Source: Desulfosarcina alkanivorans (GTDB taxonomy: Bacteria > Desulfobacterota > Desulfobacteria > Desulfobacterales > Desulfosarcinaceae). From it: a DNA stretch of 64,000 bases. The notes beneath the pieces were generated by a model. It worked only from the letters and a program-made list of their open reading frames with translations, had not been told where the DNA came from and did not search any database. Every line of letters starts with the position of its first letter. Position 1 is the stretch's first letter. The DNA lies in contig NZ_AP021874.1 of NCBI RefSeq assembly GCF_009688945.1, positions 558,001-622,000 of the forward strand. Direction: 5' to 3'. The translations under genes were made by a program, and so were the position numbers. Below are positions 22,764 to 52,543 of this stretch, in pieces.

Positions 22764-23759
22764 TCAGGAAAGGGTATCCAGCGGGCTTTTGACGGCGTCG
22801 ACGTCTGTTTTCATGACATGGGTGTAAATTTCGGTGGTCTTGACATCCGCGTGGCCCATGAGTTCTTGAACCACCCGGATATTGGTGCCGCTTTCAAGCA
22901 GATGGGTTGCAAAACTGTGGCGCAGGGTGTGGCAGCCGGCTTTCTTGTGGATTTTTGCGAGCGTCAGTGCCCGTTTGACCGCCTTTTGAAGGCCGGATTC
23001 CAGAACGTGATGCCGCCTTGTTTCTCCTGAGCGGGGATCCCGGGACATCTGCTTTGCGGGAAAAACATACTGCCAGGCCGTCTCTTTGGCCGCATTCGGG
23101 TATTTGCGGCCAATCGCCGCCGGAAGGTACACCCCACCAAACCCTCGTCCGAGGTCGGCCTTGTGCAAGGCAACCACCGACGACACCTGCTCCTGCAATT
23201 CCCTTTTAATGGTTTCCGGCAGAATGACCGTACGGTCCCTGCCGCCTTTGGGACTGCGAATAAAAATTCGTCCCTGCCCGAAATCCACATCTTTGATCCT
23301 GAGGCGCACACACTCCATGAGCCGGAGGCCGCAGCCATACAGCAGTTTGGCCATCAGTGCATGCTTGCCTTTCATCTGGCCAAGCAGCCCCTCGACCTCC
23401 TTCCGGGTCAGCACGGTGGGCAGGTTCCTGCGGCGTTTCGTGCGGGTAGGGGCGATTCCCGGTCCCAGGTCGATGTCGAGGACTTTCCGGTATAGAAAGA
23501 CAAGGGCATTCAGGGCCTGCTTCTGGGTGGCTGCCGCCACATTCCGTTTTTCCGCCAGGAAGCTCAAAAAGCGTTCAACTTCGGTTTTTCCCATATCCCG
23601 TGGATGGGTTTTCCCACCGTAGAACTTTACGTATTGAAGAACCCAGGATGTATAGGACTGCTCGGTTTTGTATGCATAATGGTAATACCGCAGCACCTCA
23701 CGCACCTGATCCATCAGGCGGGATTCCGGGTTGGGTTTGAATTTTGGCTTGCTTTCCAT
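22764..23759 (-). CDS. intI: Integron integrase IntI (tyrosine recombinase)
   Basis: 331 residues. An N-terminal SAM-like DNA-binding domain (about 15-100) precedes the catalytic domain with Arg146, Lys171, His277-x-x-Arg280, His303 and the nucleophile Tyr312. Between about 215 and 250 lies the extra segment found only in integron integrases (KYPNAAKETAWQYVFPA), which separates it from XerC/D. It appears intact. It is transcribed away from the cassette array, the common arrangement, and would recombine folded single-stranded attC with double-stranded attI. Confidence 0.96.
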   Translation of the reverse strand: MESKPKFKPNPESRLMDQVREVLRYYHYAYKTEQSYTSWVLQYVKFYGGKTHPRDMGKTEVERFLSFLAEKRNVAAATQKQALNALVFLYRKVLDIDLGPGIAPTRTKRRRNLPTVLTRKEVEGLLGQMKGKHALMAKLLYGCGLRLMECVRLRIKDVDFGQGRIFIRSPKGGRDRTVILPETIKRELQEQVSSVVALHKADLGRGFGGVYLPAAIGRKYPNAAKETAWQYVFPAKQMSRDPRSGETRRHHVLESGLQKAVKRALTLAKIHKKAGCHTLRHSFATHLLESGTNIRVVQELMGHADVKTTEIYTHVMKTDVDAVKSPLDTLS

Positions 23760-23932
23760 TGTTGCGGAACATTATAAGGTTAGGCGGAATGTTTAAGCAA
23801 AGCATAAAAATCGTTGCAATACAAGCTGTTATTTTCCGTATTTTATACAAGATAGGGTAATATGTGGACTGCGTTTCCATATATATGCACCCATAGCGCG
23901 GAAAAGATTTCCATCTATCAACACTGATAAGC
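23760..23932. other. Probable attI and cassette-promoter region
   Basis: AT-rich, non-coding DNA between the intI start and the first cassette. The crossover would be at the G at 23926, directly followed by ATAAGC of the first 182-bp unit. The integrase and cassette promoters must lie here, but I could not choose convincing boxes; TTGCAA near 23813 with downstream TATTTT is only a weak possibility. Confidence 0.6.
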
Positions 23933-24107
23933 TGGACCGCTCCGCGCTCCAGCTTATCGTCGCCGGCTGCTTCGCCATGGGCCTGAACGTGTCGCGCTGC
24001 GCGCTCCACTTATCAGGCCCATGGAGCCGACTGCGATTCTCGCCTCCGGCCCGAAATAAAAACCATTTCGTCCCGGAGCCTGCGAGTCTCGCGCCTCATC
24101 CGGCGAC
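23926..24107. repeat. 182-bp palindromic ORF-less cassette, copy 1 (at attI)
   Basis: First of five near-identical units, all exactly 182 bp. It starts with an 11-bp perfect hairpin (GATAAGCTGGA ... TCCAGCTTATC). The rest is bounded by GTCGCCGG and CCGGCGAC and contains two long inner stems (CCATGGGCCTGA/TCAGGCCCATGG and CTCCGG..CGAAAT/ATTTCG..CCGGAG). It ends just before GTTGGGC at 24108. Read as a cassette (ATAAGC...GACG), its own attC boxes would be GCTTATC (23952-23958) and GATAAGC. It encodes no protein. Here it occupies the position next to attI. Confidence 0.85.
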
Positions 24108-24133
24108 GTTGGGCTTGTATTGAATGTAAAATT

Positions 24134-24458: not shown

Positions 24459-24591
24459 GCCCAACAAGCCTGTTCACTCCGACCGGAAGGGGCGTGCGCC
24501 TTTGCCATTGGCCATTGCAGGAGCTTTTCAGGCTTTTTACCATTTACATCATCTGTGTTCCCCTTCCGGCAGGTGACAGGCGGCGATAAGC
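24459..24591. other. attC site of the 106-aa cassette
   Basis: R'' GCCCAAC at 24459-24465. The left arm ACCGGAAGGGG (near 24480) pairs with CCCCTTCCGG (near 24562), and GCCTGTTCAC pairs with GTGACAGGC. The R' position is taken by GATAAGC of the next 182-bp unit (24585-24591). Confidence 0.8.
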
Positions 24592-24766
24592 TGGACCGCT
24601 CCGCGCTCCAGCTTATCGTCGCCGGCTGCTTCGCCATGGGCCTGAACGTGTCGCGCTGCGCGCTCCACTTATCAGGCCCATGGAGCCGACTGCGATTCTC
24701 GCCTCCGGCCCGAAATAAAAACCATTTCGTCCCGGAGCCTGCGAGTCTCGCGCCTCATCCGGCGAC
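24585..24766. repeat. 182-bp palindromic ORF-less cassette, copy 2
   Basis: Identical by eye to copy 1, including GCGCCTCATCC near the end. It is preceded by the attC left part ending GACAGGCGGC and followed by GTTATAC (24767-24773), which would otherwise complete that attC. Confidence 0.85.
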
Positions 24767-24823
24767 GTTATACGTCAAGTAAATAGGCTATATCGGAATG
24801 TAAAAAACAATTAGGAAAAAATC

Positions 24824-27800
24824 ATGGTAGAGATTTCATTTCTTCACTTCACCGACTTACATTGGGGTCAACATGGCCTCGGACATTTTTGGCCTACCTA
24901 CAAGACCAAACTTAAAGAAGACTTAAAGAAAATGCGAGAAAAGGTTGGAAGGAACTGGGATTTTGTCTTGTTCACTGGCGACTTGGCCTTCTCTGGGCAG
25001 AGCAACGAGTATGAGACCCTAACAGAAGTTTTGCAGGAGGTTTGGGAATGGTTTAAAGAAGACGGCTCTGAGCCATTTTTCATTCCTGTTCCGGGAAACC
25101 ATGATCTCAGGCGATTAGATGATGCCAATCCAGTGGCCATTAGCTTAAGCTACTGGGAGGACAAGCCCAATCTGCGGGAAGAGTTTTGGAGCAACCCAAA
25201 CTCCGAGTACCGAAAAACCCTGAGAGAAGCCTTCCATGGATATACAGAGTGGTTAGGCTCAAAGCCAGTACCCATGCCGGATAACTTCCAATCCGGCATT
25301 TTACCTGGTGATTTTTCGCTATCTATCTCTTTAAACGATTTCAAGCTTGGAATCATTGGCTTAAATTCCGCTTTTCTCCAGCTCACTCAAGAGGATTTTA
25401 GAGAAAAAATAGTACTCTCTGCTAAACAAATTATTCCTATTATGGATTCTTCTCCTGATGACTGGTGTAAAAAGCATCACTTTAACATTTTTATGACCCA
25501 TCATAACCCTTCATGGCTTTCGGAGTCATCCTTGCGTGAGTTCAGGGCCGAAATCTATCCTCCAGACCGATTCAACCTTCACATTTTTGGTCATCTCCAT
25601 GAGGCAATGGGCATTGAACTTTCGGAGGGTGGATCCACTTCAAGGAAATTTCGGCAAGGGCCTTCACTTTTAGGGCTTGAAAAATATGGTACCAGGGACG
25701 AAATTCGAACTCATGGCTACATTGCCAACAAGATTGAAATTCAAGGCCCCTCCGGCACGGAGCGATATTGGCCGCGCATCTTGGTTAAAAAGGCCGGGGG
25801 GTACCACGGATTTGATCCAGATACAAAATTCGAAAGAGATTCTGACGATTCGGTTTCCTCAGTTTTCAAGCTTACCCAGGATGAAGAAGCCGATTTAATA
25901 GAGAATGCTATAGAGAACAATCAAAATGAGTTTCAAAACATAGCCTCCGAGGATGAAGGAATTCACTCGATTGAAGAAAATGACGATTCTTTAGAGCAGG
26001 ACCTCACCGCGAAAGACGAGGAAAAATCTACTACGCTCCCACGTTTTATTTGGAAGCTACATTCCCACCATCAGGCAATCCGTCAGGCTGAGCAAGCATC
26101 TCTTGAGAAAACCTTGCTTGAGAAACGATGTGGGATAATAGTTTCAGACTGGGGTCTTGGAAAAATTGGCTTCATTGGAACTGTATTGGCGCGACTTGAA
26201 AAATCTGATCCTGTTGAGGTTTTCAAAGTCTCATGCAGCGAAACAGAAACATTGGAGCAAATGGACACTATTTTTAGGCAGCAGCTCGGTTTCTCGTTTC
26301 AAGAAACAATGAATCTCCTATCAAATTTACCGAGACCTGTTCTTTTTATGGATGATTTTTCTCCTAATTTACTTGAAGAAATTAGAGGGAAAGAGCAACC
26401 AGGGGAAACATTTTTGCAGCCCCTTCTCGATTTTTGTCCAACTCTCTTGATAATTATAGCGATGCGACAAGCTCCAAAAAATCCCCTCTATGATGTAATT
26501 CACCTACGGGCTCTAGAAATTCCAGACACAAAACTTTATGCCCAAAAGCACGACATAACAGTGGAAGAATTAAAAGATCCCAACATAATCGAAGCTTTAC
26601 ATATGAAATCCGATGGTCTTCCAATGCATTTGGATATGATTATTGAGCAACTTCAAGTTAGTTCTCTAAATGAGATCCTGACATTAGACGATGGGGTTTC
26701 ATCATTAGACAAAGAATCAGAGCCAGTACCTATCGCGCTCCAAAAGGCTGTGAGAAGCTTGGCCGAATCTAATGACAAGTATAAAAAACGAAGTGCCAAA
26801 CTCCTTCAAGTCCTAAGTTTCCTCCCCGCAGGAGAAAGCCTTTCTGCGTTGAAGCGTGTATTTCCAACACAGCCATTTTATCCACAAAATGCTGTAGACC
26901 TATTTAAATTCGATTTAGTTCAAGCTGAAAATCCCATGGAATTTACAAAAACCGAAGACCATGCATCCGACCTCTTTCGTAGCGGAATCACAGGAGAAGA
27001 GAAAAGGCTTGTTGTTCCCAGACAAGTCCGCGATTATGTTAAATCGATAACGCCAGAGGCAGATTTAATTGATATCACAAGGGCGACGCTGTTTTTAATG
27101 TTCGGTGATAATTGGCTTAGTGGGAATGCGTTACTTCAGCCCAAAAGAAAACGGACTCTTCGAGGGGTAAGAGGTCTGGGGCCAGGAAATGAGCATGCAG
27201 TTGCAGTCAGTTATCTTAGGCAGTCGATTAAAGAAAATGAACCTGCAAAAATTAGAAAATCAATTAAGCTTGCAATCAGCTTAGCATCAGCCTATGCCGA
27301 TGCTTCAAAATATCGTGATTGCGCTATTGTTGCGGACGAATATTTATCAATTACCACAGGGTTGTTAACAGAAGAGGAAAATAAGCACCTCTCCATTCTA
27401 TTGGCGAGGGGGCTCAGAATGACAGGAAAAAGAAATAAGGCATTGGCATTACTTGATTCAGTAATTGAGAATAATGACGAATCGATAACTAAGGATGAAA
27501 GAGCAGAAATAGAGTTATTGCGAGCTTTAATTTTAGAAAAAAATCGAGACAAGGATGGTGCCCTTGAAGCAGCTAATCGCGTACTGAATCTTGCCTCAAA
27601 AGGCTCTGGGCGACATGACCATGCACTTAGTGTGATCATTGATATAGAAACTTGTGGCAAGGAAAGGATAGAAAATCTCGCAAGACACGAAAAAGCAGCC
27701 AGGGGTAGAGGCAACTTAGTTGTTGCGAACAATATCGCATTAGACATTTATTCGGAACTAACTGATGAGGATGCCAAGAGTGCAGCTCTTGAGAGCGTTA

Positions 27801-28210
27801 TAAAGTGTAAAAAAGATCCTTACAACAAGATCAGGGCTTTGGTAAATAAGGCAAATTTAGCAAATAAGAATGGTTCTTCCATCTCTTTGAGTATTGCGGA
27901 GAAGGCGATGCTGAGGCAAGCGTACTCTTTTCTTTTTACTCAAAGATTAGGCAACCTTTTTGATGAATGCCACAAAGTATTGTGGAAATTATTTAAAATC
28001 GAGGATAATCTGAATTATCTCTTATTAATGTTCCGTTTAAGTTCTTTTGTATGGAGACTGCAAGGAAATATCGAGACAGAGAAGACATACGCAATTCAGA
28101 TACGTGAAACCGCAGAAAAGGGTCTAATTCCAAAAGCCCAAAGGAAAGTTGTGATGGCTTTTGAGTATTTTAAAAAGAGATTGGGCTTTTTCATTTCTGA
28201 TGTTAATTAA
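24824..28210 (+). CDS. Metallophosphoesterase-NTPase-helical repeat protein (candidate defence effector)
   Basis: 1128 residues, very large for a cassette gene. Residues about 5-260 are a calcineurin-like phosphoesterase with all metal motifs: FTDLHW, FTGDLAFSG, PVPGNHDL, FMTHHNPSW and IFGHLHE. After an acidic linker (about 340-405), a P-loop-like NTPase follows: SDWGLGKIGFIG at about 441-452, where the Ser/Thr after the Lys is replaced by Ile, and Walker B VLFMDDF at about 507. The last roughly 450 residues are helical and TPR-like. This effector-NTPase-sensor order is that of STAND-type immune proteins, so an antiphage function is inference. The ATG at 24824 is 57 bp after the core site. 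The cassette's attC is split by an IS. Confidence 0.82.
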   Translation: MVEISFLHFTDLHWGQHGLGHFWPTYKTKLKEDLKKMREKVGRNWDFVLFTGDLAFSGQSNEYETLTEVLQEVWEWFKEDGSEPFFIPVPGNHDLRRLDDANPVAISLSYWEDKPNLREEFWSNPNSEYRKTLREAFHGYTEWLGSKPVPMPDNFQSGILPGDFSLSISLNDFKLGIIGLNSAFLQLTQEDFREKIVLSAKQIIPIMDSSPDDWCKKHHFNIFMTHHNPSWLSESSLREFRAEIYPPDRFNLHIFGHLHEAMGIELSEGGSTSRKFRQGPSLLGLEKYGTRDEIRTHGYIANKIEIQGPSGTERYWPRILVKKAGGYHGFDPDTKFERDSDDSVSSVFKLTQDEEADLIENAIENNQNEFQNIASEDEGIHSIEENDDSLEQDLTAKDEEKSTTLPRFIWKLHSHHQAIRQAEQASLEKTLLEKRCGIIVSDWGLGKIGFIGTVLARLEKSDPVEVFKVSCSETETLEQMDTIFRQQLGFSFQETMNLLSNLPRPVLFMDDFSPNLLEEIRGKEQPGETFLQPLLDFCPTLLIIIAMRQAPKNPLYDVIHLRALEIPDTKLYAQKHDITVEELKDPNIIEALHMKSDGLPMHLDMIIEQLQVSSLNEILTLDDGVSSLDKESEPVPIALQKAVRSLAESNDKYKKRSAKLLQVLSFLPAGESLSALKRVFPTQPFYPQNAVDLFKFDLVQAENPMEFTKTEDHASDLFRSGITGEEKRLVVPRQVRDYVKSITPEADLIDITRATLFLMFGDNWLSGNALLQPKRKRTLRGVRGLGPGNEHAVAVSYLRQSIKENEPAKIRKSIKLAISLASAYADASKYRDCAIVADEYLSITTGLLTEEENKHLSILLARGLRMTGKRNKALALLDSVIENNDESITKDERAEIELLRALILEKNRDKDGALEAANRVLNLASKGSGRHDHALSVIIDIETCGKERIENLARHEKAARGRGNLVVANNIALDIYSELTDEDAKSAALESVIKCKKDPYNKIRALVNKANLANKNGSSISLSIAEKAMLRQAYSFLFTQRLGNLFDECHKVLWKLFKIEDNLNYLLLMFRLSSFVWRLQGNIETEKTYAIQIRETAEKGLIPKAQRKVVMAFEYFKKRLGFFISDVN

Positions 28211-33613: not shown

Positions 33614-34657
33614 CTATTGATCGAAGAATCGTTTCATGTTGAACGCCTCCTTGTTTTTGAGCATAAAGTAAATGGCCCGGCCCAGCTTGTGGGTGAAGAT
33701 TCCCAGAGCCTTGCCTTTATTGTATTTGTGTTCCAGTTTGGAAACGAAATACTTTGCCTGGGATGAATCCCTGAGCATGAGGATCGCGGCTTCCTTGATC
33801 GCCCATTTGAGATGGTGGTTGCCGATCTTCTTGTTGCTGTGCCCGGCCCACTTGCCGTCGGACTCTTTTACCGGCCGGATCAGCCTGGCATAGGATGAGA
33901 AATCCTGTACCCTGGGAAACCGCCTGACATCATGGACCTCGTACAGGATTACCAGGGCCAGGATCTGCCCGACACCGGGGATTGAGCGCAGCAGATATAA
34001 AGTGTGGTAATCATGCTGGCGGGCGGTTTTTTCGATATGCCATTCAAGCTTTTTAAGAATCTGATTCATGGCATCGATCATGGCCAAGTCGACTTCGATG
34101 CTCTTTCTGACAGCCGGGTCTTCAAACCTTTCGGCGACACCGCCATGGTTGTATTTGCGTGACAATTTTTTCCTGAACGCCGGCAGGTTGTACTGGGTAT
34201 TGGTGTTGTTAATATGGGCTACCAGTTCGCTGCATCGTCTCGACAGATACATGCGCCGGCGCAGCAGATCCCGTGTTGCCCGCCACTTGGCCGGATAGGG
34301 ATAAGCGGTGGGAAAATTGCCGCCTTTGAGTAACATGGCGAGTTTGTAAGAATCGATTTTATCGTTTTTGGTTTTGCCGCCGTGGATGGCTTTCATGTAT
34401 AATGCGTGTCCAAGGACGAAATCGATTTTGTGATCGGCGCACAGATCGGCCAGCCAGTACCAGCAGAAGACACATTCAACACCGACAACAACGTCTTCGA
34501 TAAACGGGAACACCAGTTCGAAAAAGAGTTCCGGGTCGGTTTTGATATTCAGGTGAACAACAATTTTTCCTTTATGGTCGAGGATGCAGACATACATTTT
34601 CCTGGCATGCAGATCGACACCGCAGTAATACTTGTGCTGTCGGTTGTAAAATTTCAT
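33614..34657 (-). CDS. IS110/IS1111-family DEDD transposase, copy 2
   Basis: 347 residues, the same protein as at 28770-29813, with the same ATG after AAGGAGG. Both copies are complete, so either could supply the enzyme for further moves. The long upstream extension of the open frame into the 182-bp repeat on this strand is not part of the gene. Confidence 0.93.
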   Translation of the reverse strand: MKFYNRQHKYYCGVDLHARKMYVCILDHKGKIVVHLNIKTDPELFFELVFPFIEDVVVGVECVFCWYWLADLCADHKIDFVLGHALYMKAIHGGKTKNDKIDSYKLAMLLKGGNFPTAYPYPAKWRATRDLLRRRMYLSRRCSELVAHINNTNTQYNLPAFRKKLSRKYNHGGVAERFEDPAVRKSIEVDLAMIDAMNQILKKLEWHIEKTARQHDYHTLYLLRSIPGVGQILALVILYEVHDVRRFPRVQDFSSYARLIRPVKESDGKWAGHSNKKIGNHHLKWAIKEAAILMLRDSSQAKYFVSKLEHKYNKGKALGIFTHKLGRAIYFMLKNKEAFNMKRFFDQ

Positions 34658-34915
34658 GATGTGCCTCCTTTTGCTTGGGTAAGTATTTGTTAGGGGTAAC
34701 AAAAGTTTACCGTTGCAAGTGAAAGGGGGCAACCCATCATCATGTTTTCTGTTCGAGAATGGGGTATTAAAAAGCTCGTCGGAGAACAGGAAATATGATG
34801 ATGGGTTTACACGACAGCCCCGTTTCTTTGGGAGGCCATAACTAGTATCAAATCGCTCCACCTGACCAGATTTACCGCCTAAAATCGGCGGTAAATCTGG
34901 CAGGTGAGCTCCAAT

Positions 34916-35097
34916 GATAAGCTGGACCGCTCCGCGCTCCAGCTTATCGTCGCCGGCTGCTTCGCCATGGGCCTGAACGTGTCGCGCTGCGCGCTCCACT
35001 TATCAGGCCCATGGAGCCGACTGCGATTCTCGCCTCCGGCCCGAAATAAAAACCATTTCGTCCCGGAGCCTGCGAGTCTCGCGGCTCATCCGGCGAC
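34916..35097. repeat. 182-bp palindromic ORF-less cassette, copy 3
   Basis: Same length and structure as copies 1 and 2, with GCGGCTCATCC instead of GCGCCTCATCC near the end. Preceded by GAGCTCCAAT of the GNAT attC and followed by GTTAGCT (35098-35104). Confidence 0.85.
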
Positions 35098-35452
35098 GTT
35101 AGCTGAATAGAGATTGGAGGCACACCTATATGATTATACGATTAGAAAGAAAAGACGATTACACCCAAGTTGAAGAACTTACAAGAGAAGCCTTTTGGAA
35201 TTTATATTTTCCTGGATGTAATGAACACTATTTATGTCACATATTACGTGGGCATAAAGATTTTATCAGTGAACTTGATTATGTAGTAGAACTTGATGGT
35301 AAAATAGTTGCTTCCATTATGTATACACACTCTTATTTGATCAATAATGATGAAGAAACAGTTCAAACTGTATCTTTTGGCCCTCTCTGTGTTCATCCCG
35401 ATTATCAACGAAAAGGTATTGGCTCGGCATTAATTGAAAAGACAAAATCATT

Positions 35453-37016
35453 GTACGCGTTCACGGGATATTCCCGTATGAATCAAATCCAGGAAAGGTC
35501 AGGCATTATATTACGAAAGTAGGAAGCAATACATTCCACGAGAAATGGGAACGTGGGCTTTTCATTTAAACGGCAGGTCTCTTTCAGTGACAAGATCCGC
35601 TCGACCCACCGATTACCCTTTTCGCTTTGGGTTCCCAGACTGCGTTTTCGCCACAGCACACCAAAACGTAAGGCCCGCTCAGCGCGATTATTTGTAGGTT
35701 CGACGCCATGGTGATCGAGAAAGGTCCACAGACTGTCCATTTCCCGTACGATCTGACGGGCAAGTCTACCAGCATCGGTCTTGTCCTCCTCCCAAAGGGA
35801 GACGGTGAACAAGAAGAACGTATAAAAATCCGACCACTGTTTTGAGTCGGGAGGTTCTTTGGCAAACGATACCAGTTGCCTCAGCCAGGCGGCGACGATT
35901 TCTCCGAAGCGGCGAAGGTCGGGTTTCTTTCTTTCCGTCAGGGCATCGGCCTTGCGGATCAGGTGAGCCAGGCAGGTTTGGCGGTGCACCCATTTTTGGT
36001 ATAGGCCGTATCCATCACTGACCAGAATGCCGTTCCAATCCTGGATTAAGTTTTCGAAGGCCTCCTTAGACCGGTGTGGGTCGATACGATAAAATGCCAC
36101 CCGTTCATTTACCATGGCCCACAGCCAGTGCAGATCATTTTGCTTAAACCAGGATGTTTCGTCGATGTAGTTACACCAAAAGCGTCGGGCGATCTGGCCG
36201 ATGCGTTCGTAGACTGGCAATAGCGCATTTGAGGTGCGGTCGACAATTTTCTGGATGGTTCCGGTGGCAATGGGAATGTCTAATACAGATTCGCACAACT
36301 TTTTGACATCGTTTCGGCTCATGCCCTTGATGCCGCTCAGTTCACCGATAAAGGCGGTAAAACGAGGACCGTAACCGGTGGACATCTCAGGTGGCAGCAT
36401 GGCTTTGACCACGTTACCGCAGTTAGGGCAATCGCATTGCTGGAGAAGATAGTGATTGACTTGCATTTCGATTTCGGGAAGCTCAATATGTTGATGTACG
36501 TAAAACGTTTTCATCTTTTCCTGATCGAAAGCCGAATGCCCGCATGAGCAACGTTGCGGGGTCAACCAATAGCTCTCGGTCGGGTCCAGCACTTGCTGCT
36601 GGTGCGGCTTATGGCCTTTCTGACCGCCTTTAGCCTTTTTGCTCTTTTTTTGCTTTCTCTTCTTCCTCGCAAAAGGTGGATCGGAAGACGGTGGCTTGCT
36701 GGAGTTGTGAGAATTTTTCCGGGTCCGAACCTCGAGCTTCTCGAGCCGTTTTTCGTGGAGTGCAATCCGCTGTTCCATATCGAAAAGCGTCCGTTCCAGA
36801 GCCATGATGTAATGACGCACCGGCTCTGGCGTCAGTTGCCAATCGAGTTCCGAAAAAGGTCTTTTGAGTGCCATGAAAAGCACCCTATCATAGCCAAAAA
36901 GAAAAATCTAGATTTATTTTGAATTATTCCAGATGGTTAGGAACCTTGCTTTTGTGTATTGATTTCGGGGACTTGCGAAGCCAATCGGACCATCAAAGTA
37001 CCCCGTGAATGCTTAC
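35453..37016 (-). mobile_element. One-ORF IS66-family element, copy A
   Basis: 1564 bp. The 8-bp target duplication is AAATCATT at 35445-35452 and 37017-37024. Imperfect terminal inverted repeats have the form GTA.GC.TTCACGGG.TA. It carries only the large transposase gene and no TnpA/TnpB helpers, like the ISBst12 subgroup. It is a copy of 50629-52192 in opposite orientation. Confidence 0.92.
35483..36874 (-). CDS. IS66-family transposase (TnpC type), copy A
   Basis: 463 residues from the ATG at 36874 with AGGG upstream; a GTG at 36883 is also possible. It has an N-terminal coiled coil, a basic Lys-rich stretch, a zinc-finger-like region (RCSCGH and CDCPNCG) and the DDE catalytic core with Asp in CNYIDETSWF, Asp in GILVSDGYGLY and Glu in NNRAERALRFG. 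Identical to the product at 50771-52162. Confidence 0.94.
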   Translation of the reverse strand: MALKRPFSELDWQLTPEPVRHYIMALERTLFDMEQRIALHEKRLEKLEVRTRKNSHNSSKPPSSDPPFARKKRKQKKSKKAKGGQKGHKPHQQQVLDPTESYWLTPQRCSCGHSAFDQEKMKTFYVHQHIELPEIEMQVNHYLLQQCDCPNCGNVVKAMLPPEMSTGYGPRFTAFIGELSGIKGMSRNDVKKLCESVLDIPIATGTIQKIVDRTSNALLPVYERIGQIARRFWCNYIDETSWFKQNDLHWLWAMVNERVAFYRIDPHRSKEAFENLIQDWNGILVSDGYGLYQKWVHRQTCLAHLIRKADALTERKKPDLRRFGEIVAAWLRQLVSFAKEPPDSKQWSDFYTFFLFTVSLWEEDKTDAGRLARQIVREMDSLWTFLDHHGVEPTNNRAERALRFGVLWRKRSLGTQSEKGNRWVERILSLKETCRLNEKPTFPFLVECIASYFRNIMPDLSWI

Positions 37017-37338: not shown

Positions 37339-37418
37339 GCTAACAAAACGTTTCACCATCGCTCCACTACGTTACGCTGGACGCGCGTGATCGCGCGCCG
37401 GTGAACTTACCGATAAGC
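37339..37418. other. attC of the split GNAT cassette
   Basis: R'' AGCTAAC (37339-37345), left arm AAACGTTTCACC, inner palindrome GCGCGTGATCGCGC, right arm GGTGAACTTACC, then GATAAGC of the next 182-bp unit (37412-37418). Confidence 0.78.
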
Positions 37419-37593
37419 TGGACCGCTCCGCGCTCCAGCTTATCGTCGCCGGCTGCTTCGCCATGGGCCTGAACGTGTCGCGCTGCGCGCTCCACTTATC
37501 AGGCCCATGGAGCCGACTGCGATTCTCGCCTCCGGCCCGAAATTAAAACCATTTCGTTCCGGAGGCTGCGAGTCTCGCGGCTCATCCGGCGAC
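37412..37593. repeat. 182-bp palindromic ORF-less cassette, copy 4
   Basis: The most diverged copy, but still 182 bp: AAATTAAAACC for AAATAAAAACC and GTTCCGGAGGCTG for GTCCCGGAGCCTG. The arm changes are partly within stems. Followed by GTTAACT (37594-37600). Confidence 0.85.
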
Positions 37594-37615
37594 GTTAACT
37601 GATAATCGAAATAAT

Positions 37616-38476: not shown

Positions 38477-38601
38477 CCTATCACTTAAGCGGGACCGGGA
38501 AAAGCGGCGGCATTTTGAAAGGTCATATTTTATTTAAAATCTGAAGTCTATTGAAAATATGTCAGGGCTTGTTTCCCGGCCCCTTAGTTCAAACGATAAG
38601 C
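38471..38601. other. attC of the PH-like membrane protein cassette
   Basis: R'' AGTTAAC (38471-38477), left arm GCGGGACCGGGAAA, right arm TTTCCCGGCCCC, and GATAAGC of the next 182-bp unit at 38595-38601. The loop between the arms is AT-rich. Confidence 0.7.
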
Positions 38602-38776
38602 TGGACCGCTCCGCGCTCCAGCTTATCGTCGCCGGCTGCTTCGCCATGGGCCTGAACGTGTCGCGCTGCGCGCTCCACTTATCAGGCCCATGGAGCCGAC
38701 TGCGATTCTCGCCTCCGGCCCGAAATAAAAACCATTTCGTCCCGGAGCCTGCGAGTCTCGCGGCTCATCCGGCGAC
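38595..38776. repeat. 182-bp palindromic ORF-less cassette, copy 5
   Basis: Same as copy 3 by eye. Preceded by TTAGTTCAAAC and followed by GTTAGCA (38777-38783). It leads directly into the GHKL ATPase cassette. Confidence 0.85.
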
Positions 38777-38812
38777 GTTAGCACCTCATAATTACCAATG
38801 GAGGCACAAAGA

Positions 38813-40450
38813 ATGACATCAACAGATTCTACAAAAATAAAGCCGAAAGTCCATGATCTTAGTACATTTAAACAAATCATGGAAAGTCGTTCCCATCCTC
38901 TTGACATGCTTCGAGAAGCAATAAGCAATATGATGGCTCCAGAGGTAAAGGCATCTGAACTTAAAATTCAGCATTACAGTCATCCAGAACATAATGCATC
39001 ATTTATATTAAAAGATGATGGCATAGGTATGACTTATACCGAAGATACCGATAACCCTGGCAGGTTGGATCGTTTTATTGGCTTGGCATTTTCCCGTGCT
39101 GCTGGACTTGAAGCTGACTATTGGGGCTGGAAGGGACTTGGTTCAAAATTGATGCTGAATTGTAACAAATTGGTTCTCGAAACATGGACAGGAAATAATA
39201 AAGACAAGTTCATTATTCTAAATATCATCAACCCAAGAAATTCTCTACTTTCAGAACCTCCTTTGGCACCTGATTATTATCTGACACAACGTGAATCTTT
39301 ACCATCAGATACAAAAGGCACAAAAATAGAAGTCTTAGGATATGATGGCGGTCAAAAAATGTACTCTATTGACGAAATAGAAAGATATTTATATTGGAAT
39401 ACTGCTGTTGGAATAACAAAAGAAATCAATCACAAACCAAGAATATCACTCAAGGTGAATTCAGAAGAAAAAGAATTAGAAATTGGATACAAATTCATAA
39501 CACCACAATTTTTGCTGGATGGCAAAAATGATTGGCGTACTGTTGTTATTGGAGAACCAATTTCTAAATCTAATAAAGTGGTTATTGACGGTAACGACAA
39601 AGAAATAAATGTCACTTTGAAAGGAGGATTCACTCTTGATACAGGGAAGTTTGGTTTATCTCCCCATCGTTACAACACTGGTTTAAGGTTATCTGTGAAG
39701 GGAATACCGTACTTTCAATTCCCTTTCTACGAATACAAGGGAAAGAAATTCCAACAATACAAAGACTTATGTAGTTTTGTGGTTGAGTGTGACGAAATTG
39801 AGTCTAAGCTAAATCTTGACAGAAGTAATATAAGCAATCAGATGGGTGATGATCCCGCTGTAAAGGCTTTCAGGAAATTAACATCAAAATGCTTCGATGA
39901 ATTTACAGAATCATCATCATATAAAGAATTTGAGAAAAATAGAAAAAAAGAAGACGAAAGGAATAAAGCTGCTGCTGTCAGGAAACGTCAATCTGCTTTA
40001 AGTAAGCCAGACCAAGAGTACGCATGTATTGAATCTAATGGAGAAATTAAGCTAATCCATAGGGTTCCAGACAAATCAGAGATGCACACATTATGTATAT
40101 TCTGGAAACTTGAAGCTTTAGGTAAATTGCCATTTGAGAATTTTATTACATGGGAACATACAAAAAAGGATGGCATAGATGTAATTGCATCATTCCAAAT
40201 AGATGATGAATCATCATTAGAAAATTTTGTTCCTGTTGAGTTTGAGGCAACATTTGAAAATTACATCAATCATGGACACAACCCAAAGCAAACTAAATGC
40301 ATAATATGTTGGGAAATAAATAATAAAGCTGTATTGCGTAAAATCAAAGATTATCTGTTCTATTATGATGTTGATGATACTTCAATTCCAGTATACGAAA
40401 TCAAGTCTTTTCCTGAAATTCGAATACATAAATATTCAGAAGTGAGCTAA
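38813..40450 (+). CDS. GHKL (Hsp90/MORC-like) ATPase with nuclease-like C-terminus (candidate defence gene)
   Basis: 545 residues from the ATG at 38813, which has GGAGG 8 bp upstream; the ATG at 38798 lies before that site. GHKL motifs: N-box MLREAISN (about 34), G1 KDDGIGM (about 66) and G2 GWKGLGSK (about 105), as in MORC and Hsp90. The last 100 residues contain DGIDVIASF (about 451), PVEFEATF (about 474) and TKCIICWEI (about 493), the D...ExE/K layout of PD-(D/E)xK-type nucleases. An ATP-gated nuclease acting in defence is inference. It stands alone in its cassette, next to a Gabija cassette. Confidence 0.75.
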   Translation: MTSTDSTKIKPKVHDLSTFKQIMESRSHPLDMLREAISNMMAPEVKASELKIQHYSHPEHNASFILKDDGIGMTYTEDTDNPGRLDRFIGLAFSRAAGLEADYWGWKGLGSKLMLNCNKLVLETWTGNNKDKFIILNIINPRNSLLSEPPLAPDYYLTQRESLPSDTKGTKIEVLGYDGGQKMYSIDEIERYLYWNTAVGITKEINHKPRISLKVNSEEKELEIGYKFITPQFLLDGKNDWRTVVIGEPISKSNKVVIDGNDKEINVTLKGGFTLDTGKFGLSPHRYNTGLRLSVKGIPYFQFPFYEYKGKKFQQYKDLCSFVVECDEIESKLNLDRSNISNQMGDDPAVKAFRKLTSKCFDEFTESSSYKEFEKNRKKEDERNKAAAVRKRQSALSKPDQEYACIESNGEIKLIHRVPDKSEMHTLCIFWKLEALGKLPFENFITWEHTKKDGIDVIASFQIDDESSLENFVPVEFEATFENYINHGHNPKQTKCIICWEINNKAVLRKIKDYLFYYDVDDTSIPVYEIKSFPEIRIHKYSEVS

Positions 40451-40451
40451 G

Positions 40452-40538
40452 TGCTAACAAAGCAAATGCACTCGGACTGCCAAAAGCTGCGCCGCTTCGC
40501 TCTGCACCTTTTGGCAGCCGGTGATTTGCGGGTTGGGC
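40452..40538. other. attC of the GHKL ATPase cassette
   Basis: R'' TGCTAAC (40452-40458), left arm GCAAATGCACTCGGACTGCC, right arm GGCAGCCGGTGATTTGC, R' GTTGGGC (40532-40538). A canonical, complete site. Confidence 0.88.
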
Positions 40539-40631
40539 GGGTTAAATTTTGACCTACTCACATGATACAGCGAAGAGCCAATTATAATGTAAGATCTGAA
40601 GCGCTAATCGGTGCTCGAAAGGAGTACATCT

Positions 40632-42698
40632 GTGTATATTTCGAAAATTAAGCTGAAAAACTTCCGAAATTTCAGTGAAAGCGAACTTGTATTTAACGAT
40701 GGCGTTAATGTTATCATAGGACACAACAATTCGGGTAAAACAAACCTGTTAAAAGCTTTATCCTTGATATTTGATAATAACACTTCAAAAAAGCTAACTG
40801 TCGATGATTTTAACCAATCGATTAGCGATTTTCAAAACCCACCGCGGATAGATATTTCAGCCATTATGAAACAGTCAGAAAAGCCTGAAAACGAAAACAA
40901 AGAAGATCAGAATACTGTTTCAACCTGGCTGTTAGACATCACCCCTCCTTATGAAGCGATGCTTACTTACTCATTCTTCCTTCCTGATCAGGAATTAGAA
41001 GAATACGAAAAAGAGCTTGAAAAGTTATCCAAATCAAACCCGACTGTCAAAGACTATTGGAGGATGATCAAAAGAAAGTTTATAAGAAAATATATTTCGA
41101 GAATATACGGAGGGAGGCTTGAATTAAACAATAGAGCTGAATCGGAAAAATTGGACAGATTTGATTTTCAATTTTTAGGTCCTGTAAGGGATGTGGAAAA
41201 GACCATGTTTACAGGCAGAAATCCTATGTTGAAAGAAATTTTGGATTACTTCCTCGACGATGATATAGCAAAAAATGACAAGTTGGATGAAGATCATAAA
41301 CGAGAGGAAATCGATAAAAGGGAAAACCAATTTTATAATGATTCAAAAGCAGTCATCGATTTATTAAAAAGAAGGGTGGAAGTTAATTCGATTTTAGAAT
41401 ATTCGAGCGACACAGGCGCTTCATTGGGAGGGAAACCAAAGTTTGAAGGCGAAATTAGTGAATCAGAATTGCTTTCCGCCCTAAAGCTCTTGATTGAAAA
41501 TAAGACAGGAATAACCATCCCAGCAACCCACAATGGGCTTGGGTACAATAACTTGATTTATGTCGCCTTAGTTTTAGCAAAAATGCAGATGGATTGTTCG
41601 AGCTATGTTGGAGTTGAAAATGCAAAAGTTTTTCCTATGCTAATCATTGAAGAACCGGAAGCGCATTTACATCCTGCAATGCAATTCAAGCTTTTAAAAT
41701 TCCTGAAAGAGAATATTAATCAAGAGAAGCAAGTGCGACAGCTTTTCATCACAACCCACTCAACCCATATTACGGCAGCTGTTGCCCTTGATGAGATTAT
41801 ATGCATGTATGTTGATGATTCTGATACCCTATGCGTTTCTTATCCGGGAAATGTTTTTGATCTGACAAAAGATGAAGATAGAAAGTCAAAAGCATATGTG
41901 GAGCGTTTTTTAGATGCAACAAAATCCGATATGCTTTTTTCAGATAAAGTAATTTTAGTTGAAGGATTGGCTGAACAGATCTTGCTTGACTGCCTTAGCG
42001 AATATGAAAACAAACCTTTGGTTGACAGGCATATTTCCGTTGTGAACATTGGCGGCAGGTATTTTGAGCATTTTTTAAAGCTTTTCAATTTTGATAAAAA
42101 AGATGTTTTCAAAAAGCATGCAATTAATAGAATGGTCGCGTGCATTGTTGATTCCGACCCCACTCGCTTAGAAGATACAAAATGGAAAAAGTGCTTTCCT
42201 TTTGAAATTAAAGAAGATGAAAAACATAAAGGAATCGCAGATAATGTTAGTTCCTTAGAGAGTGATAAATCATCCAATATCAGTATCTTCTGCAATGAAA
42301 CAGGGAAAGGTAAAACATTGGAATACGATATTGCTTTTGAAAATCCAGATTGCAAACTTCTTATTACAGACAGCGTCATTCCTATGCATAGAAAAATTAT
42401 AGAGCAAATAATGGATAACTATTCAACTGCAAGTTTTAAATCCTTAAAAGAGACCCCAAATGTTGATGCTGATGTTTGCAATTTGCTTGAGGAAACTGGT
42501 TGGGATGAGGATGATAAGAAAAAAGGAATTGTCGCTTATCATTACTTTAAGGCTGTATCTAATGCAAAGGGCGAACATGCAATGCAGCTTGAATATAATT
42601 TAAGGAAAAATCTGGAAAGTGATAAGCCCGTATCATTCAATATTCCAACTAATTTTAATGAAGCAATAACCTGGATAAATGGATTATCACATGATTGA
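40632..42698 (+). CDS. gajA: GajA-like OLD-family ATPase/TOPRIM nuclease (Gabija)
   Basis: 688 residues from the GTG at 40632, which has AAAGGAG 7 bp before it; the earlier GTG at 40611 would place that site inside the gene. The N-terminal ABC-type ATPase has Walker A IGHNNSGKTN (about 29) and Walker B IIEEPEAHLHP (about 338). The TOPRIM domain has ILVEGLAEQILL (about 440) and IVDSDPTRLED (about 504). Together with a UvrD-type helicase gene overlapping its 3' end, this is the Gabija antiphage layout. The partner is truncated, so the system is probably inactive. Confidence 0.85.
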   Translation: MYISKIKLKNFRNFSESELVFNDGVNVIIGHNNSGKTNLLKALSLIFDNNTSKKLTVDDFNQSISDFQNPPRIDISAIMKQSEKPENENKEDQNTVSTWLLDITPPYEAMLTYSFFLPDQELEEYEKELEKLSKSNPTVKDYWRMIKRKFIRKYISRIYGGRLELNNRAESEKLDRFDFQFLGPVRDVEKTMFTGRNPMLKEILDYFLDDDIAKNDKLDEDHKREEIDKRENQFYNDSKAVIDLLKRRVEVNSILEYSSDTGASLGGKPKFEGEISESELLSALKLLIENKTGITIPATHNGLGYNNLIYVALVLAKMQMDCSSYVGVENAKVFPMLIIEEPEAHLHPAMQFKLLKFLKENINQEKQVRQLFITTHSTHITAAVALDEIICMYVDDSDTLCVSYPGNVFDLTKDEDRKSKAYVERFLDATKSDMLFSDKVILVEGLAEQILLDCLSEYENKPLVDRHISVVNIGGRYFEHFLKLFNFDKKDVFKKHAINRMVACIVDSDPTRLEDTKWKKCFPFEIKEDEKHKGIADNVSSLESDKSSNISIFCNETGKGKTLEYDIAFENPDCKLLITDSVIPMHRKIIEQIMDNYSTASFKSLKETPNVDADVCNLLEETGWDEDDKKKGIVAYHYFKAVSNAKGEHAMQLEYNLRKNLESDKPVSFNIPTNFNEAITWINGLSHD

Positions 42699-42829
42699 CT
42701 GGGATAAATGCGAAACAATTGATTCTGATTCTGAGATACCAGATATAGAAAGACATTTCCGTGTTTTTGCCGGACCAGGTGCTGGAAAAACTCATTGGCT
42801 TATAAAACATATCAAGAATGTTGTAAAAC
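42679..42829 (+). pseudogene. gajB: GajB-like UvrD/Rep helicase, truncated after Walker A
   Basis: Only about 50 residues remain. They include FAGPGAGKTHWLIKHI, the Q-less UvrD Walker A that begins GajB helicases. It starts at ATG 42679 or 42691, overlapping the end of gajA, as in coupled Gabija operons. At 42830 the sequence changes to the left end of a RAYT element, and the rest of the helicase is absent from the window. Confidence 0.8.
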
Positions 42830-49322: not shown

Positions 49323-49403
49323 GTATAACAAATCGATTCAGGGGATTTTTATTTACGGCTGAAAAGCGCCGTAAATAAAAACCCCTGATCTCAAACGTTA
49401 TCG
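49323..49403. other. attC before the TIR cassette
   Basis: R'' GTATAAC (49323-49329), long arms GGGGATTTTTATTTACGGC and GCCGTAAATAAAAACCCC, R' GTTATCG (49397-49403). One of the most regular hairpins in the array. Confidence 0.88.
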
Positions 49404-50628
49404 CGTACAATAAATGAGGAGTATATGAAAAAATACCAAATTGCTCTGTCATTTGCAGGTGAAGATCGTGACTATGTTGAGAAAGTTGCAACCATTCTTC
49501 GTGAAAAAGGTGTTAATGTTTTTTACGACAAATTTGAAGAAACGAAACTATGGGGGAAAAATCTATACACTTATCTTAGTGATATTTATCAAAACAAGGC
49601 CCTTTTTACGGTCATTTTTGTTTCGAAAGCTTACAGGGACAAAATGTGGACCAACCATGAAAGAGAAAGTGCCCAAGCAAGAGCATTTACAGAAAGTAAA
49701 GAATATATTCTTCCGGCCATGTTTGATAATACGATCGAAATCCCGGGTTTATTGAAAACGACAGGGTATATAGATTTAAATGACTTATCACCGAACGACT
49801 TTGCTATCAAAATCATTGGCAAGTTGAAAAACGAAGGGTCTATGTCAACATCTGAGACATCAAAACCGAAAACAAATTCACCAGGCTTTATCCATCCCGA
49901 AAAAGACTTAAAAAAAATAATCGCTGAAGATGAGCTGTTTGATCGATACTTTTCAACAGATGACGAAACAAAGGGATTGATAAAGAATTTCGGTATTCAA
50001 TACCACCAATACAGCAAGAAAAGTGTCCAAGAAGAAATTACCCTCCACTATTCTTTTCCTTTGATGACCAGAGCTTTAACAATGCCTTCATGTCTGTATT
50101 TTTTAAAAAATGGTTTTGAGCGTTGGAGCCAGTCTTATCGATTTTTTAAGGTTAAACCCGATGATGGTATAAAAATAGGAAAAGGATATCAAATACTGGA
50201 GGAGTTCAATAAAACTCCTTGGATACTGGTTCATTACAAATATTCTGGGGCCAGCTACCCATATTTAAAATTATTTTTTCTCAGAAAACATGAAAACTAT
50301 AATACTAGTAACGCTCAGTATTTAACCATACATGCTAGGCCATTTGAAAGAAATAGTACAAAAATAACTTTAGAGTATCGGCATTGTTTCAAACCCAGTA
50401 TTTTGAATTATTTGTTTGATCAGCTGGATAAAATCTTTGATAAGCAAAAAACCTTTGAGAATATAAATGGCCCAAACCTTAGTCGAAATTTAAAAACGAT
50501 GGCAAAAGCCATCGACAAATTTGCTTACAATATTTTTCATTTTAAAAAGCTACTGATATACGAAAGTGAGGATACCCCTTATTGGCAGGAGTACATAGGC
50601 GGAGGAGACGGCTTTATTTATTATTATC

Positions 50629-52192
50629 GTAAGCATTCACGGGGTACTTTGATGGTCCGATTGGCTTCGCAAGTCCCCGAAATCAATACACAAAAGCAAG
50701 GTTCCTAACCATCTGGAATAATTCAAAATAAATCTAGATTTTTCTTTTTGGCTATGATAGGGTGCTTTTCATGGCACTCAAAAGACCTTTTTCGGAACTC
50801 GATTGGCAACTGACGCCAGAGCCGGTGCGTCATTACATCATGGCTCTGGAACGGACGCTTTTCGATATGGAACAGCGGATTGCACTCCACGAAAAACGGC
50901 TCGAGAAGCTCGAGGTTCGGACCCGGAAAAATTCTCACAACTCCAGCAAGCCACCGTCTTCCGATCCACCTTTTGCGAGGAAGAAGAGAAAGCAAAAAAA
51001 GAGCAAAAAGGCTAAAGGCGGTCAGAAAGGCCATAAGCCGCACCAGCAGCAAGTGCTGGACCCGACCGAGAGCTATTGGTTGACCCCGCAACGTTGCTCA
51101 TGCGGGCATTCGGCTTTCGATCAGGAAAAGATGAAAACGTTTTACGTACATCAACATATTGAGCTTCCCGAAATCGAAATGCAAGTCAATCACTATCTTC
51201 TCCAGCAATGCGATTGCCCTAACTGCGGTAACGTGGTCAAAGCCATGCTGCCACCTGAGATGTCCACCGGTTACGGTCCTCGTTTTACCGCCTTTATCGG
51301 TGAACTGAGCGGCATCAAGGGCATGAGCCGAAACGATGTCAAAAAGTTGTGCGAATCTGTATTAGACATTCCCATTGCCACCGGAACCATCCAGAAAATT
51401 GTCGACCGCACCTCAAATGCGCTATTGCCAGTCTACGAACGCATCGGCCAGATCGCCCGACGCTTTTGGTGTAACTACATCGACGAAACATCCTGGTTTA
51501 AGCAAAATGATCTGCACTGGCTGTGGGCCATGGTAAATGAACGGGTGGCATTTTATCGTATCGACCCACACCGGTCTAAGGAGGCCTTCGAAAACTTAAT
51601 CCAGGATTGGAACGGCATTCTGGTCAGTGATGGATACGGCCTATACCAAAAATGGGTGCACCGCCAAACCTGCCTGGCTCACCTGATCCGCAAGGCCGAT
51701 GCCCTGACGGAAAGAAAGAAACCCGACCTTCGCCGCTTCGGAGAAATCGTCGCCGCCTGGCTGAGGCAACTGGTATCGTTTGCCAAAGAACCTCCCGACT
51801 CAAAACAGTGGTCGGATTTTTATACGTTCTTCTTGTTCACCGTCTCCCTTTGGGAGGAGGACAAGACCGATGCTGGTAGACTTGCCCGTCAGATCGTACG
51901 GGAAATGGACAGTCTGTGGACCTTTCTCGATCACCATGGCGTCGAACCTACAAATAATCGCGCTGAGCGGGCCTTACGTTTTGGTGTGCTGTGGCGAAAA
52001 CGCAGTCTGGGAACCCAAAGCGAAAAGGGTAATCGGTGGGTCGAGCGGATCTTGTCACTGAAAGAGACCTGCCGTTTAAATGAAAAGCCCACGTTCCCAT
52101 TTCTCGTGGAATGTATTGCTTCCTACTTTCGTAATATAATGCCTGACCTTTCCTGGATTTGATTCATACGGGAATATCCCGTGAACGCGTAC
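50629..52192 (+). mobile_element. One-ORF IS66-family element, copy B
   Basis: 1564 bp, with target duplication TTATTATC at 50621-50628 and 52193-52200. Ends GTAAGCATTCACGGGGTA and, inverted, GTACGCGTTCACGGGATA. Same element as at 35453-37016, opposite orientation. Confidence 0.93.
50771..52162 (+). CDS. IS66-family transposase (TnpC type), copy B
   Basis: 463 residues from the ATG at 50771 with AGGG upstream; GTG 50762 is an alternative. The same protein as in copy A, with a complete DDE core (YIDETSWF, VSDGYGLY, NNRAERALR). A likely source of recent transposition, since both copies are identical and both target duplications are perfect. Confidence 0.94.
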   Translation: MALKRPFSELDWQLTPEPVRHYIMALERTLFDMEQRIALHEKRLEKLEVRTRKNSHNSSKPPSSDPPFARKKRKQKKSKKAKGGQKGHKPHQQQVLDPTESYWLTPQRCSCGHSAFDQEKMKTFYVHQHIELPEIEMQVNHYLLQQCDCPNCGNVVKAMLPPEMSTGYGPRFTAFIGELSGIKGMSRNDVKKLCESVLDIPIATGTIQKIVDRTSNALLPVYERIGQIARRFWCNYIDETSWFKQNDLHWLWAMVNERVAFYRIDPHRSKEAFENLIQDWNGILVSDGYGLYQKWVHRQTCLAHLIRKADALTERKKPDLRRFGEIVAAWLRQLVSFAKEPPDSKQWSDFYTFFLFTVSLWEEDKTDAGRLARQIVREMDSLWTFLDHHGVEPTNNRAERALRFGVLWRKRSLGTQSEKGNRWVERILSLKETCRLNEKPTFPFLVECIASYFRNIMPDLSWI

Positions 52193-52485: not shown

Positions 52486-52543
52486 AGCTAACCTTCCGTT
52501 TCACTGGACAAGCTGAAGCTTGCCTGTGAACTCAGCGTTAGGG
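52486..52543. other. attC of the TIR cassette
   Basis: R'' AGCTAAC (52486-52492), left arm GTTTCACTGGACAAGC, right arm GCTTGCCTGTGAACTC, R' GTTAGGG (52537-52543). 58 bp, the compact form typical of proteobacterial integrons. Confidence 0.9.

Follow-up and report, generated by a model that had tools for sequence, protein, structure and literature searches.

The locus and its integron setting

The window, by which we mean the whole stretch of 64,000 nucleotides analysed here (Desulfosarcina alkanivorans, contig NZ_AP021874.1), carries on its plus strand at 38813..40450 a gene for a protein of 545 aa that combines a GHKL ATPase with a nuclease-like C-terminal domain (CTD). The longer mechanical open reading frame, 38798..40450, encodes 550 aa, and the residue numbers given below follow this reading (minus 5 for the 545-aa protein). 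Position 38813, the start adopted in the preliminary description, is the better one because an SD-like GGAGG (38800-38804) lies 8 nt ahead of this second ATG and because a close relative, L001 (about 87-88% identical), begins at the same residue. The PADLOC search returned no match for the protein itself.

Also encoded, on the minus strand at 22764..23759 and divergent from the array, is an integron integrase (intI; TIGR02249, 430.8 bits against a cut-off of 265). The first copy of a 197-nt repeat starts less than 200 nt from this gene, and the copies in the window are near-identical and all lie on the plus strand (23926-24110, 24584-24770, 34907-35103, 37411-37597 and 38586..38782). Several copies stop just ahead of a gene start, namely those of a GNAT gene (35130), an ORF of 286 aa (37616) and the GHKL gene, whose 5' cassette boundary is the copy at 38586..38782, ending in CGACGTTAGC. 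The repeat is taken as the array's own attC-type repeat, with a putative core. At the other end of the gene, 3 nt past the stop codon, is an attC on the plus strand (40453..40547; R'' GCTAAC ... R' GTTAAAT) with a bottom-strand hairpin that has extrahelical bases (z -5.0). More attC-like sites were identified at 49324-49403, ahead of the TIR gene, and at 52487-52543; a scan for attC in the 22 kb across intI from the array found none. With intI nearby, an attC directly 3' and an attC/attI remnant 5', the GHKL-nuclease gene belongs as a cassette to a chromosomal integron, a setting that the preliminary description had overlooked. The L001 gene is placed likewise.

The integron region (22764-54000) includes among its cassettes genes for a metallophosphoesterase, the GHKL-nuclease, GajA and a TIR protein, and is heavily interrupted by IS110, IS66 and IS200-like elements. 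The calcineurin-like metallophosphoesterase (1128 aa, 24824-28210) lies directly behind a repeat copy and has weak similarity to the PDC-S60/DS8 anti-phage proteins; the TIR protein is encoded at 49425-50708 in the same array. Within 33614-35103, an IS110 element directly adjoins one of the 197-nt repeats, which looks like its target. The two IS66 copies (35453-37016 and 50629-52192) are 1564 nt long, 100% identical and inverted, and flank 13.6 kb that include the GHKL gene; such a pair could invert or move it. Outside the window, a second array at G000:C1:5999490-6049585, far from the window intI, has some twelve further 197-nt repeats of nearly full length, and another intI-like gene (392 bits) occurs in the same genome as the window at 5153016-5153945.

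The next cassette encodes GajA, an OLD-family nuclease with an intact frame (40611..42698, plus strand; PADLOC GajA, 842 bits). It is followed by a truncated GajB (42691..42829, plus strand) that retains the first ~46 codons, including the Walker A motif GPGAGKT, and is broken by an IS200-like copy. The remnant reads MIDWDKCE...FRVFAGPGAGKTHWLIKHIKNVVKL and then runs into repeated IS200-like sequence; GajA is thus an orphan, and the locus does not have the intact GajA and GajB that make up Gabija. As GajA starts 160 nt downstream of the GHKL gene on the same strand, next to a broken GajB, it could be proposed that the two form a two-gene system in which the GHKL protein replaces GajB. We consider this highly improbable and reject it on the intervening attC, the GajB remnant and the lack of co-occurrence. 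The attC places the two genes in different cassettes, L001 has no GajA, and the GajA relatives in G398 and G408 have a full GajB and no GHKL gene, so that GajA and the GHKL gene belong to separate systems.

ATPase module, linker and C-terminal domain

In the predicted structure, the parts follow in the order GHKL ATPase, transducer-like domain, helical linker and a CTD of ~145 residues. The GHKL ATPase domain (38846..39490, plus strand; residues ~17-231) has an N-box with E40 and N44, DDGIGM at 73-78 and GWKGLGSK at 110-117. These motifs, which the preliminary description had picked out, are all intact and are kept across the relatives in the alignment. The N-box lacks the usual DA and has a 2-residue insertion, both of which are common to L001, L011 and L077. 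Pfam HATPase_c_3 matches below threshold (18.6 against a 25-bit cut-off), and a profile built from eight relatives matches the structures of MORC2 (E 1e-7) and MutL (E 6e-7). The full-length model (mean pLDDT 71) matches GyrB, topoisomerase VI, MORC3/4, MutL and Hsp90 at Z about 16, with the GyrB, MutL and MORC alignments covering residues 17-399 of the model. The motifs and this fold similarity place the protein in the GHKL ATPase superfamily.

A second, S5/transducer-like domain (39491..39847, plus strand; residues ~232-350) falls in a low-confidence region of the model. It is followed by a long helical linker (39854..40000, plus strand; residues 353-401), delimited from the secondary structure of the model. 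The earlier label "MORC-like" holds insofar as MORC2 is the nearest solved GHKL structure, but the S5 motif that defines MORC proteins, GhXhhpXXRhl (Iyer 2008), is absent. A pattern search did not find it in the window protein or in 13 of the 14 relatives, and membership of MORC sensu stricto is ruled out by the absence of this motif.

The CTD (40004..40447, plus strand; residues 403-550) contains D461, the VEFE segment with E481 and E483, and CIICW (501-505) ending in W505. An HGH (H492 and H494) stands ahead of the CW, and a conserved E428 completes the E-D-ExK/E residue set. Modelled alone (pLDDT 82, pTM 0.77), the CTD has, in its own numbering, a helix at 27-38 with E26 at its start, strands at 49-53 and 58-63 (D59), a strand at 75-83 (E79 and E81), a helix at 84-90 and a strand at 99-104. 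In this predicted model the order helix(E)-strand-strand(D)-strand(ExE)-helix-strand is that of the PD-(D/E)xK fold, with E, D and ExK in their expected places and E for K in the window protein.

The best Foldseek match to the CTD in the PDB is NucS of Pyrococcus abyssi, which is weak (E 0.02); EndoMS ranks fourth and Hjc resolvase eleventh. VIA realignment gives Z values of 4.7 for NucS (rmsd 4.2, 91 aligned), 4.2 for EndoMS, 4.0 for YaeQ, 3.9 for Can1 and 3.3 for SPO1766, with BamHI (3.3), NucC (2.8), Ecl18kI (2.8) and AgeI (2.7) further down. The top eight rows are, we take it, all PD-(D/E)xK proteins. Each structural score is below certainty, and the absence of a fold from the VIA list is not evidence against that fold; the argument for PD-(D/E)xK is therefore made by the enrichment of such matches together with the placement of residues. 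A sequence profile of the CTD found nothing in the PDB (best E 2.3), and a search of a viral fold library gave no match under E 0.1. We predict that the CTD is a PD-(D/E)xK-type nuclease domain of a family without a library name. This agrees with the restriction-nuclease-like C-terminus first proposed, as D461, E481 and E483 are placed on the predicted core and E428 fits as well.

Relatives were drawn from whole genomes, plasmids and viral contigs, and 15 full-length proteins, the window protein included, were aligned; the CTD part is too poorly conserved to serve as a scan query. In 13 of the 15, E428, D461 and E481 are retained, which bears out the expected conservation of the D and E residues. 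The fourth residue of the set is E in six members (the window protein, L001, L003, L011, L013 and L077) and K in seven (L004, L005, L008, L014, L015, L016 and L076). The Lys-to-Glu replacement suggested earlier for the EFE of the window protein is real because these seven bear the canonical ExK where the window protein has ExE. BamHI also has Glu at the Lys place and is active (PMC4081073), and its E113K mutation abolishes cleavage (PMC8845596).

An HxH is present in all six ExE members and a single H after N in all seven ExK members, a perfect split across the 13 proteins with D and E. Also ExE with HGH are L006, in which the CTD occurs alone, and L007. In a tree of the GHKL part, the split is explicable by as few as one or two changes; it is thus weak evidence for compensation, and a role of the histidines in place of the missing Lys is suggestive, no more.

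The two remaining proteins, haloarchaeal L009 and L010, lack D and ExE and keep the GHKL domain; the CTD can thus do without catalysis somewhere. W505 is invariant even in these proteins, so the CW part looks structural. It could be argued from L009 and L010, from the ExE where ExK is expected and from the similarity to MORC2 that the CTD is a DNA-binding relic of a nuclease fold, and that the protein entraps or compacts foreign DNA in a MORC-like, ATP-driven manner without cutting. The retention of E, D and E in 13 of 15 members would be hard to understand in a relic, however, and ExE is active in BamHI. We regard this non-cutting reading, the second alternative in order of likelihood, as quite improbable.

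Spread and genomic contexts of the relatives

L001 is encoded in a MAG labelled Caldisericota, where the gene lies between lepA and rRNA-like sequence. GTTAGC is present ahead of its start and an attC-like sequence past its stop, followed by a second small cassette. DNA similarity between the window and L001 (78%) begins at the gene start and stops ~30 nt past the stop codon, within the attC. The L001 copy is a second, independent attC-flanked cassette in a distant MAG.

The distribution is patchy. The GHKL-nuclease gene was absent from all 12 genus-mates examined, and is present in four of 389 genomes of the class, the D. alkanivorans genome included. L004, from the same order, is 69.5% identical to a protein of a Caballeronia plasmid. 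L011-L016 are located on virus-like contigs, and a tblastn search of phage records gave no match. On these comparisons, the gene is one that moves horizontally. This distribution bears on the idea of a housekeeping GHKL protein, mismatch-repair-like or involved in signalling, with no defence function. A MutL-like GHKL domain and the resemblance of the CTD to NucS/EndoMS would suit such a role; absence from the 12 genus-mates, presence in four of 389 genomes of the class and carriage on cassettes, plasmids and virus-like contigs argue against it and make it exceedingly improbable.

Neighbourhoods of the homologues vary. L003, L005 and L079 are found among unrelated genes. L004 lies directly upstream of a gene for an adenine-type DNA methyltransferase. 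On haloarchaeal plasmids, the GHKL relative directly follows a TGT (archaeosine/DpdA-like) gene (L009, 4952-7554; L010, 3667-7539), and in L010 a DpdK-like phospholipase-D gene is nearby; these genes may possibly constitute a DNA-modification system. In L007 (1330-2085), the CTD is joined to a segment that matches EVE weakly (E 0.016, under the cut-off), with no Pfam name for the nuclease part, making it a candidate modification-dependent nuclease. We conclude from these contexts that the family is mostly single-gene and tied at times to DNA-modification genes. The cassette structure and the stand-alone relatives support the single-gene status first assigned to the window protein.

The links to modification genes suggest, as the main alternative, a modification-dependent restriction component instead of a general defence nuclease. 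It would cut DNA that has, or that is missing, a base modification made by a methyltransferase or by an enzyme inserting 7-deazaguanine, whose gene is in some cases its neighbour. In addition to L004, L009, L010 and L007, this would be consistent with the reading of modified bases by EVE domains (PMC7641849, PMC7897488) and with the location of published paraMORCs mostly in R-M loci (PMC2292703). Against it, a methyltransferase is present neither in the window cassette nor in L001, most relatives stand alone, and in the archaeal members the nuclease site has been lost. We consider such dependence unlikely for the window protein.

Proposed function and comparison with known systems

The analysis shows how the domains are laid out, which motifs are kept, that the gene lies in a cassette and that its horizontal spread is patchy. 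It is most likely a one-gene defence system, because the mobile cassette sits beside the remains of other anti-virus genes. We consider it fairly probable that the protein acts on its own as a defence (restriction) nuclease, its gene being housed as a cassette in a chromosomal integron. An ATP-gated nuclease is the best reading of the protein, with putative activity. ATP binding would drive dimerisation via the GHKL domains, and the transducer and helical linker would close round or reorganise DNA. Closure of this clamp would bring two C-terminal PD-(D/E)xK domains into cutting position, where D461, E481 and E483 would bind the metal ions, with E428 assisting and H492 and H494 perhaps replacing the missing Lys. 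We infer dimerisation, ATP gating, DNA cutting and the anti-phage role. Points against a nuclease are the fold scores (Foldseek E 0.02, Z 4.7), the ExE of the window protein and the L009/L010 proteins without D and ExE. Also against the proposal, a cassette at a large distance from the integron promoter may go unexpressed.

More tentatively, the relatives could form a new family, separate from Shedu and HgiDII, of nucleases that are encoded by a single gene and gated by their GHKL domain. The family would have a Pfam-unnamed PD-(D/E)xK domain in ExK and ExE+HxH forms, with histidines replacing lysine, and integron cassettes would carry it from one distant bacterium to another.

Defence of bacteria by proteins in which a GHKL is coupled to a nuclease is now established, and the tested case, VcSduA, uses DUF4263. 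Were the window protein to carry, on the same ATPase module, a nuclease domain unrelated to DUF4263, the ATP clamp would prove to be a gate that can serve more than one nuclease. With its cassettes in two distant genomes, the gene extends integron defence cargo by a large, predicted single-gene nuclease, and it offers a small system for asking how a protein of this kind leaves its own DNA uncut. The CTD is found on its own and next to an EVE-like domain as well, so a CTD family would give a name to several proteins that have none.

In a paper on Darracq 2025 and Kieffer 2025 (PMC12409362), integrons of the chromosome are presented as places where anti-phage genes are stored. The defence cassettes of sedentary chromosomal integrons share with the window array an intI, conserved attC-like repeats, cassette-sized homology and several defence genes per array. 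Unlike these, the window array is interrupted by IS110, IS66 and IS200-like elements.

NucS/EndoMS and other PD-(D/E)xK nucleases share with the CTD the core fold and the placement of D-ExE, and BamHI uses E-D-ExE. The structural score for NucS/EndoMS is low, a sequence relation is not detectable and the companion domain is different. Eukaryotic and prokaryotic MORC ATPases likewise have a GHKL and S5 module, and among solved structures the family profile matches MORC2 best. The window protein differs from them in its nuclease-like C-terminus, where MORCs have a CW zinc finger, and in the missing MORC S5 motif.

Published precedents exist for the combination of GHKL and nuclease (paraMORC3/VcSduA and HgiDII/BbrUII). 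The preliminary description, whose interpretation is supported in part, had missed these precedents. BbrUII/HgiDII (NCBIfam NF050001) is the nearest curated family of several relatives, with the match in the N-terminal GHKL region. The best relative, L009, reaches 47.5 bits in the GHKL part only (cut-off 550), and the search with the window protein gave no match. Membership is ruled out, as the cut-off is far off and the match ends after the GHKL domain; the window cassette also differs in having no methyltransferase.

A similar architecture is that of VcSduA (GHKL+DUF4263; Shedu type I-D), a kind formerly called paraMORC3 (PMC12137116; PMC2292703), which likewise has an N-terminal GHKL, a clamp-like middle and a C-terminal PD-(D/E)xK domain in a single gene. 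The single gene of VcSduA has been proven to defend, and protection is lost when either the ATPase or the nuclease is mutated (PMC12137116); it therefore matters whether the window CTD is DUF4263. Pfam found no match to SduA_C (DUF4263, PF14082) in the CTD up to E 1, a PF14082 search of the D. alkanivorans genome found none, and hhalign of the CTD profile against three DUF4263 proteins gave a probability of 0.9%. Shedu/VcSduA membership is ruled out by the Pfam search and the profile comparison. In paraMORC3, GHKL+S5 is followed by a C-terminal restriction-fold domain that has E-D-ExK and kinship with RecB nucleases. The window protein has an E-D-ExK/E set and the predicted fold; a profile link to the paraMORC3 CTD (now DUF4263) was not found. 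In contrast to VcSduA, the window protein has a CTD that is not DUF4263 and an ExE plus HxH rather than ExK, and is carried on an integron cassette. The idea of a GHKL-gated nuclease is thus known, and the novel part is a nuclease domain without a library name, together with its carriage by an integron.
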